A DNA stretch of 64,000 bases from Paenibacillus swuensis (GTDB taxonomy: Bacteria; Bacillota; Bacilli; Paenibacillales; DY6), in contig NZ_CP011388.1 of assembly GCF_001644605.1 (NCBI RefSeq), positions 4,321,501 to 4,385,500 on the forward strand, in the 5' to 3' direction. Positions 11,440 to 31,563 of this stretch are shown in pieces; position 1 is the stretch's first letter, and every line of letters begins with the position of its first letter. Under the pieces are notes generated by a model. It worked only from the letters and a program-made list of their open reading frames with translations, was not told the origin of the DNA and made no database searches. A program made the position numbers and the translations under genes.

Positions 11440-11812
11440 TTATCCCTTTAACTCAGAGCTCCCTTTCCACTCGGTCCGCAAGCTCCTTTTGGTCCCTTGT
11501 CCCACTCAGTTTGTTGGCTTGTTGGTCCTTTGTCCCGTTCACTCAGTTTCTTAATAGTTACCTTTGGCACTTATCCCGTTCACTCAGTGCGCGTCTCCAG
11601 TCCGTCCTTATCCCGTTCACTCAGTTTCGACTGCCAATTTTAACACTTATCCCACTCGCTCAGTTCTTTGGTTTACTCAGTTTTTTGTAAAATCGCTTCT
11701 GACTCAAGGGGATAGGCACTAAAAGTGGATGGCTATATAGATGGTAATAAACAACAGGCTCCCCTCCCCAATCTCAGCAAATGGGATAAAGTGTACTGAC
11801 TGAAAGGGATGA
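11440..11812. repeat. Dispersed repeat array, locus A (TTATCCC-N6-TCAGT family)
   Basis: Copies of an 18-bp motif on the plus strand start at 11440 (TTATCCCTTTAACTCAGA), 11530, 11571, 11608 and 11647, the last four spaced 41, 37 and 39 bp. Degenerate pieces lie between 11461 and 11511 and near 11670. Two more copies lie on the minus strand at 11772-11789 and 11795-11812. The region between the 108-aa gene and amtB (about 460 bp) has no other recognisable content. The same motif forms arrays at 28324, 29128 and 30468. Confidence 0.85.
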
Positions 11813-28323: not shown

Positions 28324-28493
28324 TTATCCCGTCTAGTCAGTTATGTATGCTGTTTGCGTCTTGTCCCTTTTAATCAGTTATGTAAGCTGTTTGTGTCTAA
28401 TCCCGTCCAGTCAGTAATGCAACTGCCTTTACGGTCTTATCCATCCAGTCAGTAATGCAACTGCCCTTTATGGTCTTATCCCATCTAATCAGT
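28324..28493 (+). repeat. Dispersed repeat array, locus B (TTATCCC-N6-TCAGT family)
   Basis: Five copies of the 18-bp motif start at 28324, 28361, 28398, 28437 (one base shorter) and 28476, with a period of 37-39 bp. The spacers are also related in pairs (TATGTATGCTGTTTGCGTC beside TATGTAAGCTGTTTGTGTC; AATGCAACTGCC twice), so the true unit is about 38 bp. The array fills most of the gap between an acetyltransferase and a thioesterase gene. Confidence 0.9.
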
Positions 28494-28507: not shown

Positions 28508-29020
28508 TCATTCCCATGGCTTCTCCATCGAAAGGAATGAGGCTAATTCTTTGGCCTGGGTACGGCGAACTTTACGCATTTCCGCTCGGCTAGCACCGGT
28601 TTCATGCAACTTTCTCTCTTCATCTGTTTCCGGAGCAATCGGAGCAACTCGCTGAGGCTGTCCCGCTTCATTCACACTTACAAAAGTCAAAAAAGCGGTA
28701 GCCGCAATTTTCCGTTCCCCCGTATTCAAGTCTTCAGCAACCGCCTTCGTAAAAACCTCTATAGAAGTAGTGCCAGTCCAAGTTACGAACGATTCCAAAC
28801 AAATAGAGTCTGTCGGCCGAATCGGATGCAGAAAATCCACGGAATCCGTTGAAGCCGTAACGACATCGGTTCGACAATGCCTGCGGGCTGCAATCGCAGA
28901 GTTCGCATCCATATTGCGCATCAGGATCCCGCCAAACATCGTATTGTGATTATTCGTGTCATTTGGCATAACCAGATCGGTGCGAATAACACGTGTTTCT
29001 TTCACTTTTTTGGCCTTCAT
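28508..29020 (-). CDS. Acyl-CoA thioesterase (YkhA-like, hotdog fold)
   Basis: A 170-aa hotdog thioesterase. The catalytic/acyl-CoA motif NDTNNHNTMFGGILMRNMD is typical of the BACH/YkhA family, followed by TASTDSVDFLHPI and VTWTGTTSIEVFTKA. It hydrolyses fatty acyl-CoA in the cytoplasm. The C-terminal 20 residues are highly charged. It is flanked on both sides by dispersed repeat arrays. Confidence 0.9.
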   Translation of the reverse strand: MKAKKVKETRVIRTDLVMPNDTNNHNTMFGGILMRNMDANSAIAARRHCRTDVVTASTDSVDFLHPIRPTDSICLESFVTWTGTTSIEVFTKAVAEDLNTGERKIAATAFLTFVSVNEAGQPQRVAPIAPETDEERKLHETGASRAEMRKVRRTQAKELASFLSMEKPWE

Positions 29021-29127: not shown

Positions 29128-29295
29128 TTATCCCTTTCAGTCAGATATCGGGTTCATTTGAATATTTATCCCCATGAGTCAGTTCCATACCTCTTTTGCC
29201 TCTTATCCCCATGAGTCAGTCACTTAGCCTCCTTTGCCTCTTATCCCCTTGAATCAGCTCCATGACCTCTTAGTATCTTATCCCTTTTGGTCAGA
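29128..29295 (+). repeat. Dispersed repeat array, locus C (TTATCCC-N6-TCAGT family)
   Basis: Five copies start at 29128, 29166, 29203, 29241 and 29278, with periods of 38, 37, 38 and 37 bp. Two are identical (TTATCCCCATGAGTCAGT). The array ends 75 bp before the promoter of the IS1595-like gene. Confidence 0.92.
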
Positions 29296-29369
29296 TCAAA
29301 CTGAGAAATGGATAATTGAAAATCGAATACTAAACTTAAAAAAAATATACATATTAATCCATAAATTTA

Positions 29370-29398
29370 TTGAAATAAGAACATTTGTTTGGTATAAT
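29370..29398 (+). promoter_or_regulatory. Sigma-A promoter of the IS1595-like gene
   Basis: TTGAAA (29370-29375), a 17-bp spacer and TATAAT (29393-29398), 45 bp before the start codon. Confidence 0.75.
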
Positions 29399-29442
29399 TT
29401 AATTAAGAGATAGATCATAAATGTTGTTGGAGGCGATTGCTG

Positions 29443-30360
29443 GTGCAGGAAGGGTTCGTAGATTTTAATGAGTTTTGTAGAAAATTTGATACAGAGCATG
29501 TTTGTTTTGAAACGCTTTTTGCATATAAGTGGCCTACTGGCTACGCCTGTCCCCGTTGCGACCACCGACACGCTTCCAAAATAACCACGCGGCGAATCCC
29601 TCTATATCAATGCCTCAATTGTAACTACCAAGCTTCGCTGATTTGCGACACAGTCATGGAAGGAACTCGAACCAAGTTATATAAATGGTTTCAGGCGATC
29701 TTCCTGTTATCCCATCCTGCTGCCAATATTAACGCAACCAAACTCTCACAAATCATCTCCGTCACTTACAAAACAGCATGGCTCATTCTACATAAACTAA
29801 GAGATGCGATTCATCAAGCAGATCTACAGATTGTATTGACTCAAGCGGTTAAAGTAAACGCCGGCATTTATAATAAGCCTCTCTTCACAAGCACGCCTTA
29901 TATTTTGCCTGGAGAACAACCCTTTATTGGAGCCGCTTCGGTTAACCAGCAAGGTGAGATGGCTTACGCAAAATTAAAGCATGTTGTCCATGAGAACAAT
30001 GAGCTTCAAGAAGTTTCTAGATACGACATAGAACATTACATTAAACAACACGTTCGCACCAACAATGTCATTAATGAGAGCAGAATGTATTTCCGCCATC
30101 GCTATCAGCCTCTTTCCCGCCTCTGCAGAAATGCATCCGTTGAAATCAACAGAGTCTATCATGGAGTAAGTCCTAAACATCTACAGGCTTATTTTGATGA
30201 GCTTTGCTTTCGAATCAATTATTCTCTATCTAGTAGTCCCGCTACTTCTTTGTCCCAACTTCTACAAATAGCAGCAACGTCAATTACCATTACTTATCGT
30301 CAATTGACCTCTCCCACCCGCGATATTTCGACTACTCCATCTAAATTTTCTGCAGCATAA
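29443..30360 (+). CDS. IS1595-like transposase homologue with degenerate catalytic site (possibly domesticated)
   Basis: A 305-aa uninterrupted frame. The N-terminal part matches IS1595 transposases: a zinc ribbon (CPRC ... CLNC, residues about 34-57) after YKWPTGYA, then TKLYKWFQAIFLL and VTYKTAWLILHKLRDAI. The C-terminus keeps GVSPKHLQAYFDELCFRIN. The catalytic core is eroded: the expected VEVDETYIGG reads VKVNAGIYNK, the second Asp region reads NVINESRMYF, and the HxNxIE-type Glu segment is shortened. No terminal inverted repeats were found. GTG at 29443 has GGAGG at 9 nt; TTG 29437 is possible. An intact frame, promoter and RBS with a dead-looking active site suggest a retained non-transposing function. 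A decaying IS copy is the alternative. Confidence 0.75.
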   Translation: MQEGFVDFNEFCRKFDTEHVCFETLFAYKWPTGYACPRCDHRHASKITTRRIPLYQCLNCNYQASLICDTVMEGTRTKLYKWFQAIFLLSHPAANINATKLSQIISVTYKTAWLILHKLRDAIHQADLQIVLTQAVKVNAGIYNKPLFTSTPYILPGEQPFIGAASVNQQGEMAYAKLKHVVHENNELQEVSRYDIEHYIKQHVRTNNVINESRMYFRHRYQPLSRLCRNASVEINRVYHGVSPKHLQAYFDELCFRINYSLSSSPATSLSQLLQIAATSITITYRQLTSPTRDISTTPSKFSAA

Positions 30361-30467
30361 TATAAGCACTCGCGATTCTTTCCTTTTCTCTTAAACATGT
30401 TATCTAATCCGATCAATAGACCTTCTCTGAAATTTTCACAGTTCATAATAATCGGGTGACCATACAA

Positions 30468-30668
30468 ACTGAGCCTTCGGGATAACATTCATAAGGGATA
30501 ATAAAATGATGTCCAAAATTAACCTTAAACACCTCCCAATATAAGAAATTATTTGAGCAATGTTTGAGCAATGTTTAAGCATTACTTGAGCAATAACTGA
30601 GCTATAACTGAGCAATATCTGAGCAATATCTGAGCAATATCTGAGCAATATCTGAGCAAAAGGGATAA
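30468..30668 (-). repeat. Dispersed repeat locus D, two TTATCCC-N6-TCAG copies on the minus strand
   Basis: Minus-strand copies of the same 18-bp motif lie at 30468-30485 (TTATCCCGAAGGCTCAGT) and 30651-30668 (TTATCCCTTTTGCTCAGA), with a partial copy near 30492. Between them is an 11-bp tandem array that runs directly into the second copy. The orientation is opposite to loci B and C on the other side of the IS1595-like gene. Confidence 0.8.
30553..30662. repeat. 11-bp tandem repeat array (CTGAGCAATAT, ten units)
   Basis: Ten contiguous 11-bp units: two TTGAGCAATGT, TTAAGCATTAC, TTGAGCAATAA, CTGAGCTATAA, four identical CTGAGCAATAT (30608-30651) and CTGAGCAAAAG, whose end merges into GGGATAA of a dispersed repeat copy. 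An 11-bp unit is about one helical turn. Homogeneity increases toward the dispersed motif, as if the array grew from it. The region 30361-30748 has no convincing gene. Confidence 0.92.
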
Positions 30669-30744: not shown

Positions 30745-30776
30745 ACAAAAACAAGGTACCCATTGCGAGTACCTTG
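30745..30776 (-). terminator. Terminator of the SDR gene
   Basis: AAGGTAC (30753-30759) pairs with GTACCTT (30769-30775); the minus strand continues GTTTTTGTT. Confidence 0.75.
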
Positions 30777-30801: not shown

Positions 30802-31563
30802 TCATTCAGCGTATATCATTTTCACAGTCATGCCCCCGTCGATGACCAGGTTTTGACCCGTGATGAAGCTTGCGTGTGGTCCTGCTAAATACAGACAAGC
30901 ATGCGCGATATCGTCCGGGACGCCCACGCGGCCAACCGGATGCTGCAGCCGGTCCTCTTCGGAGTGGTGCGGCGTCTTCGCACGCTCCGAATACTGCCAA
31001 TCCCCAGTTTCAATCCAACCGGGGGAGATTGCATGGACACGGATGCCGTGGCGACCGAGGCTCACCGCCATCGCGTGTGTCAACGCGAGTATGCCGCCCT
31101 TCGAAGCCGCGTAGGCTTCCGTGTCCGGCTCTGACATCAACGCTCGCGTAGACGCGATGTTGATGATTACCCCGCCGCCGCCGGAATCACGCATCCGGCG
31201 GGCCGCCTCTTGCGCGCACACAAAGGTGCCGCGCAAATTCACGCCCAGCACGCGGTCAAAGTCGTCCAAGTCTAGCTCCAGCATGGAGCCTCCTCGTCCT
31301 ATGCCCGCGTTGTTGACAAGCACGTCGACCGTGCCGTATTCCTCGTCGGTGACTTTAAACCAGCGCCGCATCTCCTCGGCGCTCCCCGCGTCACCGCGCA
31401 GAAACAAGGCTTGGCCTCCAAGTTTATGTATATGCCGGACGGTTTCCAGTCCGGCCTCTTTGTCGGTATCGCACAAGGACACGCGATAACCTGCTTCCGC
31501 AAAACGAAGAGCGGCAGCGCGCCCGATACCTTGCGCGCCCGCGGTAATCATCACCGTCTTCAT
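30802..31563 (-). CDS. Short-chain dehydrogenase/reductase
   Basis: A 253-aa classical SDR. Cofactor motif TAGAQGIGRAAA at the N-terminus, NNAGIG (LVNNAGIGRGG), catalytic Ser-Tyr-Lys in IASTRALMSEPDTEAYAASKG and the C-terminal SFITGQNLVIDGGMT. Substrate cannot be told; similar enzymes act on sugars or on 3-oxoacyl groups. The gene is strikingly GC-rich against an AT-rich surrounding, which may point to acquisition from another genome. It lies 27 bp downstream of a 75-aa gene. Confidence 0.9.
   Translation of the reverse strand: MKTVMITAGAQGIGRAAALRFAEAGYRVSLCDTDKEAGLETVRHIHKLGGQALFLRGDAGSAEEMRRWFKVTDEEYGTVDVLVNNAGIGRGGSMLELDLDDFDRVLGVNLRGTFVCAQEAARRMRDSGGGGVIINIASTRALMSEPDTEAYAASKGGILALTHAMAVSLGRHGIRVHAISPGWIETGDWQYSERAKTPHHSEEDRLQHPVGRVGVPDDIAHACLYLAGPHASFITGQNLVIDGGMTVKMIYAE

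Follow-up and report, generated by a model that had tools for sequence, protein, structure and literature searches.

A DDE-less IS1595-lineage gene of Paenibacillus swuensis flanked by putative former transposon ends, with a LexA-type promoter box and apparent terminator targeting

A transposase that has lost catalysis is usually taken for a gene in decay or for a single domesticated host gene. Tn7-type ends carry several transposase-binding sites and belong with TnsA/B/C genes, and group IIC introns have their insertion points just downstream of terminator hairpins. The IS1595 family of insertion sequences combines a zinc ribbon with a DDE transposase and makes 8-bp, A/T-rich target duplications (PMC12561309, PMC8101967). 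In RAYT/REP (REPIN) systems, a transposase-like gene lies between two inverted copies of a genome-dispersed repeat that also occurs in arrays; the catalytic residues of the RAYTs, tyrosine enzymes of the HUH type, are conserved, and the REPs are palindromic (PMC2817692, PMC3116915). MITEs of bacterial insertion sequences have also been described (PMC10969869).

The window analysed here is a stretch of 64,000 nucleotides (4321501-4385500 of a single-contig genome of 5.01 Mb), from the sole representative of its family among the 101 relatives searched. A gene of the IS1595 lineage lies within it, and the features of interest are as follows:

11441..11812, no strand assigned: gene-less element of five plus-strand sites followed by three minus-strand sites, inward facing (site search)
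28324..28493, plus strand: gene-less array of four plus-strand sites, no opposite arm (site search)
29128..29295, plus strand: upstream array of five inward-facing TATCCC-N6-TCAG sites starting at 29128, 29166, 29203, 29241 and 29278, period about 37-38
29370..29398, plus strand: promoter TTGAAA-N17-TATAAT (sequence; family consensus in 136 loci)
29379..29390, plus strand: LexA/DinR-like SOS box GAACATTTGTTT in the -35/-10 spacer (sequence; conserved in relatives)
29443..30360, plus strand: gene for the DDE-less IS1595-lineage protein, GTG start at 29443, TAA end at 30360, 305 aa
30468..30485, minus strand: downstream inward-facing site TTATCCCGAAGGCTCAGT (site search)
30554..30657, plus strand: 11-bp tandem array TGAGCAATATC running into the outer downstream site (sequence)
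30651..30668, minus strand: outer downstream inward-facing site TTATCCCTTTTGCTCAGA, closing the 11-bp tandem array (site search)
30747..30776, minus strand: probable right junction, an A5 run and hairpin CAAGGTACC/GGTACCTTG (sequence, fold z = -3.5, pattern in relatives)

The reading frame is uninterrupted across its 305 codons and is preceded by a ribosome-binding site, GGAGG, at about 29427. Pfam detects Zn_ribbon_IS1595 (PF12760) above cut-off (E=1.3e-9), while DDE_Tnp_IS1595 (PF12762) aligns only over profile positions 105-153, its last third, and falls below cut-off, as does the NCBIfam IS1595 transposase profile. An alignment of 58 DDE-less proteins shows little or no variation in the zinc ribbon, the helix-turn-helix (VTYKTAW) or the C-terminal KHLQxYLDE block; the four zinc-ribbon cysteines are invariant, and the DNA-binding part is the best-conserved portion of the protein. 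The DDE (or DDN/DDH) triad with a lysine at +7 that marks active IS1595 elements is absent from the 305-aa protein. Its D1 position is N139. Of the remaining 57 rows of alignment A2, 11% have an acid there; Asn, Ile and Gly predominate in the column, where Ser, Gln and His occur as well. No acid is conserved at the D2 or E positions among the DDE-less relatives in the same alignment. The first-pass annotation had described an intact gene that keeps the zinc ribbon, the helix and the C-terminal block and is catalytically degenerate, and had proposed aligning it to IS1595 transposases; Pfam and the alignment agree with it on every one of these points. The protein is securely identified as a DDE-less member of the IS1595 lineage.

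An AlphaFold (AF2) model of the protein has a pLDDT of 90.5. Residues 133-264 of the model align with the retroviral integrase core (HIV integrase 58-189, Z 9.2 by VIA-align) and with the ISCth4 transposase (Z 8.3), so that the RNase H fold is predicted to be retained; by the alignment offset, N139 would fall where the integrase has D64. Foldseek against the PDB alone returned no match at E<=0.001, and the integrase-core assignment rests on the VIA-align Z of about 9 together with family membership. In a tree that excludes L307 and L308, two intact elements found later, 41 DDE-less rows lie on one side of the branch separating them from nine intact near relatives (support 62/71), and the near group of intact relatives has support of 98/98. 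A single loss of catalysis in the DDE-less clade is favoured but not proven, the branch support being modest.

The genome holds 14 further near-full-length paralogues, 42-48% identical to the window protein over most of their length, and two fragments (at 1984760 and 1658680). All but one of the 15 listed near-full copies span the whole protein with no stop. In subfamily A of this genome the median dN/dS over 28 paralogue pairs is 0.11 (range 0.05-0.20, Nei-Gojobori); in other species, multi-copy sets have group medians of 0.15-0.29. For five diverged pairs that occupy orthologous sites in different species the values are 0.08-0.18; one more such pair, L111/L200, is almost identical and carries no information. 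The paralogue and orthologue values bear out the suggestion that the gene is retained under selection. Between orthologous pairs, site cores are 84% identical, the N6 69%, LexA boxes 96% and other flanking sequence 52%. Purifying selection acts on the protein, the TATCCC sites and the LexA box alike.

The promoter proposed earlier is present as described, with TTGAAA at 29370-29375, a spacer of 17 and TATAAT at 29393-29398, and the consensus over 136 loci is TTGA.AtaaGAACATATGTTTGGTATAAT; what had been overlooked is the LexA-type box within the spacer. A GAAC-N4-GTTC-type box over a promoter is the sequence mark of the LexA (SOS) regulon. The box is found in 61 of 66 rows tested, where about 0.1 would be expected in each, and is conserved across genera. 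The gene is predicted to be switched on by DNA damage. LexA boxes likewise lie upstream of intact IS1595-family transposases in genome G075 (L044, L218-L222), which suggests DNA-damage-induced transposition in that branch.

The oppositely oriented arrays that had been reported around the gene are real, with five plus-strand sites upstream and two minus-strand sites downstream. The window holds 24 site matches against 4.65 expected by shuffling, and the whole genome has 80 exact copies of TTATCCC-N6-TCAGT against 0 of a reversed control. A thioesterase-like gene (28508-29020, minus strand) parts the gene-less array at 28324-28493 from the gene locus, and the gene-less element at 11441-11812 is of the same class as that locus. 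Function of the repeat as a palindrome or single-stranded DNA hairpin was ruled out, since the repeat does not fold (array z = +1.6). Serial end insertion, with an array unit made of an A run plus an element end, was also rejected: AAAA lies 5-13 nt before a site in 6.5% of cases against 4.3% at random. Simple tandem repeats of other kinds (5-12 bp units) lie beside the gene in many relatives, e.g., L022, L025 and L035. On the right, the A5 run at 30747-30751 precedes a strong hairpin, the intrinsic terminator of a convergent SDR gene (30802-31563); a left junction was looked for in the window and not found.

Each of the 15 gene copies in this genome has plus sites upstream and minus sites downstream, so the sites always face inward. 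The same holds across species. Over 141 DDE-less loci, searched to a distance of 600 nt for sites with no more than one mismatch, and with about nine loci counted twice under two names, there are 249 upstream and 198 downstream inward sites against 6 and 2 outward ones, a bias of 56:1 (447 versus 8), and 119 of the loci have sites on both sides. Weighted statistics find information outside the searched motif as well (T at -9 and +7/+8, A/G at -2, C/G at -3) that extends the site to about 27 bp, the size of a transposon end. The site variant differs by protein subfamily (ATATCCC, GTATCCC, GTCTCCC or TTATCCC forms); gene and sites are inherited together, so this match is no evidence of specificity. 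Two very large gene-less double arrays in this genome, L095 (about 1680250-1681070) and L097 (about 1849590-1850670), have seven plus and nine minus, and eight plus and nine minus sites, respectively, with units that differ between the two arms.

Intact relatives point to where the site came from. L307 (G300) and L308 (G284), found in another family, are intact single-copy IS1595 elements of other Bacilli with D1 and D2 present (VEVDETY, VSDGFPSY). Their terminal inverted repeat is CATGGC+TATCCC-CATGTC-TCAG, that is, 6 bp plus TATCCC-N6-TCAG, their 8-bp target duplications are TACCACGA and AAATCAAA, and they too have LexA boxes. Stop codon and right terminal repeat overlap (TAGCCATG). The intact G075 relatives, which have D1, D2 and a His with Lys at +7, end in TTTGAA+TATCAA-GTTGTT-TCAG (6 bp plus TATCAA-N6-TCAG) and also make 8-bp target duplications, e.g., TAAAATGA and ATAGAAAA. 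Because intact elements carry TATCCC-N6-TCAG as their terminal inverted repeat, the arrays of the DDE-less family are best read as multiplied and internalised transposon ends. The claim that the locus lacks terminal inverted repeats should therefore be corrected: the opposed arrays correspond to inverted copies of the family's own repeat, as seen at the L307/L308 ends.

Homologues (E<=1e-5) occur in 35 of the 101 relatives, this genome included, at 1 to 15 gene copies per genome, and the majority are DDE-less. One peptide pattern finds at least 585 encoding stretches in genome contigs, the best 80 of which lie in Paenibacillus, Cohnella and Ammoniphilus; further homologues occur elsewhere in the class. 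The co-occurrence of gene and repeats that had been proposed as a check is strong: nine or more sites are found in 10 of 35 gene-bearing and 1 of 66 gene-less relatives, and the mean number per genome is 12.1 with the gene against 2.6 without (Mann-Whitney p=2e-4, over species that are not phylogenetically independent). The gene-less exception, G076, has one orphan array of eight sites with a 51-bp period, plus singletons, and repeats without the gene in G076 and G086 reduce to that array and background singletons. G073 has 80 TATCCC sites and few gene copies, many of the sites lying in long arrays with a period of about 60-65 bp. The DDE-less family accounts for a class of TATCCC-N6-TCAG arrays found in many Paenibacillaceae.

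The elements have also moved. Ten subfamily-A copies lie at unrelated places, their shared sequence stops at A runs, and most of their right ends lie immediately before a terminator hairpin. For the G092 element L115, two relatives preserve the empty site, which falls precisely in a terminator's A run; the junctions read GATGCAAAAAAA against GATCAATC at one end and GGGGACTAG against AAAAACCGTC at the other. The insertion duplicated 5-7 A, the exact length being masked by the A run in this one empty-site comparison. Homology to the terminal inverted repeat is seen in the sites flanking the gene, but the inserted DNA runs on for about 70-85 bp past the outermost TATCCC sites. In intact elements the cut lies 6 bp outside the site, so end recognition must differ between the two. 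At the L127 site, G092 has a derivative about 330 bp long that has lost the gene but retains the two inverted sites and the two A runs, and the junctions share the A runs; an L118 empty-site comparison was set aside as not clean. The right neighbour is convergent in 103 of 119 loci (duplicates removed), and an A run with a hairpin was found on the right in 43 of 119 loci, against 10 on the mirrored left side and 2 in shuffled sequence. Short hairpins directly follow the A run at the left ends of subfamily-A and Cohnella silvisoli elements, where insertion would recreate a terminator with a duplicated T run.

New insertions are confined to single species and, as the DDE-less state is common to the clade, most likely postdate the loss of catalysis. 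The DDE-less lineage thus seems to have kept spreading, inserting into terminator A/T runs in a fixed orientation; neither this targeting nor the origin of the repeats as terminal inverted repeats had been noticed in the first-pass annotation. Gene-less subfamily-A copies have internal deletions that differ from copy to copy, some with gene remnants, and for that reason look like in-place decay; independently multiplied MITEs were ruled out for this subfamily on the same grounds. A helper in the same genome was also sought. This genome (G000) has no intact IS1595 transposase, its PF12762 matches being DDE-less genes that align with the C-terminal part of the profile only, and no intact PF12762 match occurs in G092, G078, G024, G031, G034 or G005, which have many DDE-less copies. 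A resident IS1595 helper was therefore rejected for G000 and the gene-richest genomes, though helpers may have been present in the past.

We tentatively propose, at somewhat less than an even chance, that the gene encodes an end-binding protein of transposon origin under LexA control, and that catalysis in trans mobilises its element. DNA damage would lead to cleavage of LexA and production of the DDE-less protein, which would bind as a multimer to the inward-facing sites to the left and right of its gene and pair the two element ends. Another recombinase would then cut and join in trans, either an intact transposase of the IS1595 lineage, where one is present, or some other enzyme; by binding the ends, the DDE-less protein would keep a catalytically dead element mobile. 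Binding to TATCCC-N6-TCAG is predicted from the conserved zinc ribbon and helix-turn-helix, the conservation of the sites and their homology to the terminal inverted repeat, and we infer end pairing and catalysis in trans as well. The trans-catalysis step is weakened by the genomes with most copies, which show no intact IS1595 transposase. The broader statement, that a widespread family of SOS-controlled mobile elements of Bacilli has a catalysis-less transposase as its only protein, which binds arrays of former terminal repeats and directs insertion into the T runs of intrinsic terminators while the chemistry falls to an unrelated enzyme, is possible but doubtful. If true, a transposon lineage would here have found a novel means of persisting and spreading once catalysis is lost.

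Several other readings must be set against end binding with catalysis in trans. The protein might be a host-domesticated, SOS-induced DNA-binding protein, the dispersed arrays its chromosomal binding sites and mobility its history, with a role in nucleoid organisation or at replication/transcription boundaries beside terminators. Strong purifying selection at fixed orthologous sites, the conserved LexA box and sites, and the placing at terminators would all fit; we nevertheless consider it rather unlikely, as the gene is patchy (35 of 101 relatives) at 1 to 15 copies per genome, every gene is tied to its own local sites, gene-less copies decay through varied deletions and new insertions are specific to single species. 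Antagonism, in which intact IS1595 transposases that are under LexA control and use the same end would be titrated or competed for by the protein and its arrays, draws on the identical TATCCC-N6-TCAG end and the LexA box of L307/L308, through which both proteins would be made simultaneously, and on the DNA-binding part being the best conserved. The genomes richest in the DDE-less gene are without intact PF12762 members, though, and antagonism alone leaves the spread of the elements unexplained, so we think it quite improbable.

That the elements moved after the triad was lost, with the RNase H fold and several invariant residues retained, could also mean that the protein cleaves and joins DNA itself through non-DDE residues. 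We regard this altered chemistry as improbable, given that no invariant acid lies at or near the predicted active site and that the conserved E253 and Y250 lie outside it and are conserved in intact members too. An ordinary dead IS1595 in decay, with repeats that are chance or unrelated minisatellites, would account for the lost DDE residues and the few fragments, and is already refuted by the 14 of 15 near-full copies that are stop-free over the whole protein, dN/dS values far below 1, the 56:1 inward bias and conservation across genera; its probability is close to nil.

A whole, old, multi-genus clade (at least 585 encoding stretches) lost catalysis, yet continued inserting at a defined type of target, and in it the DNA-binding parts, the end sequence and the SOS-type promoter box were all kept under selection. 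Many soil bacteria have the same package of gene and sites, moved to new places. How an element can spread with no catalysis of its own becomes a testable question, and the clade offers an example, occurring naturally in bacteria, of DNA-binding proteins that derive from transposases and evolve together with their sites. The open-access literature, with subscription papers outside the search, yielded no description of such a DDE-less IS1595 element and array system and no paper tying IS1595 to LexA control or TATCCC-type arrays.

Against known systems, the element descends from the IS1595 family, with which it shares the zinc ribbon, helix-turn-helix, predicted RNase H fold and C-terminal KHLQxYLDE block; its one empty-site comparison shows an A-rich target duplication of masked length, and TATCCC-N6-TCAG is the terminal inverted repeat of intact relatives. 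It fails the family's catalytic criterion, and differs in the clade-wide loss of the triad, in sites that are multiplied and internal, in element ends 70-85 bp further out (one case measured), in the LexA-type promoter box and in terminator targeting. The suggested parallel with RAYT/REP stands in part: the gene is flanked by its own inverted repeats, dispersed in the same genome, and the layout is somewhat RAYT-like. The split of one gene from independently spreading repeats finds no support, as 15 gene copies each have their own sites and gene-less subfamily-A copies carry different deletions. The element is no member of RAYT/REP, having a DDE-less RNase H/integrase-core protein rather than an HUH Y1 enzyme (Tyr plus a His pair), sites that do not fold, many gene copies and repeats that travel with the gene. 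Gene-less copies keep both inverted ends as MITEs do, but those checked in subfamily A look decayed in place, not like a multiplied miniature element. Multiple inward-facing sites at both ends, here predicted binding sites, recall Tn7, with a single gene lacking an active site in place of TnsA/B/C-like genes. Insertion beside the T run of an intrinsic terminator in a fixed orientation is shared with group IIC introns, from which the element differs in having neither reverse transcriptase nor ribozyme and in duplicating the target A run.
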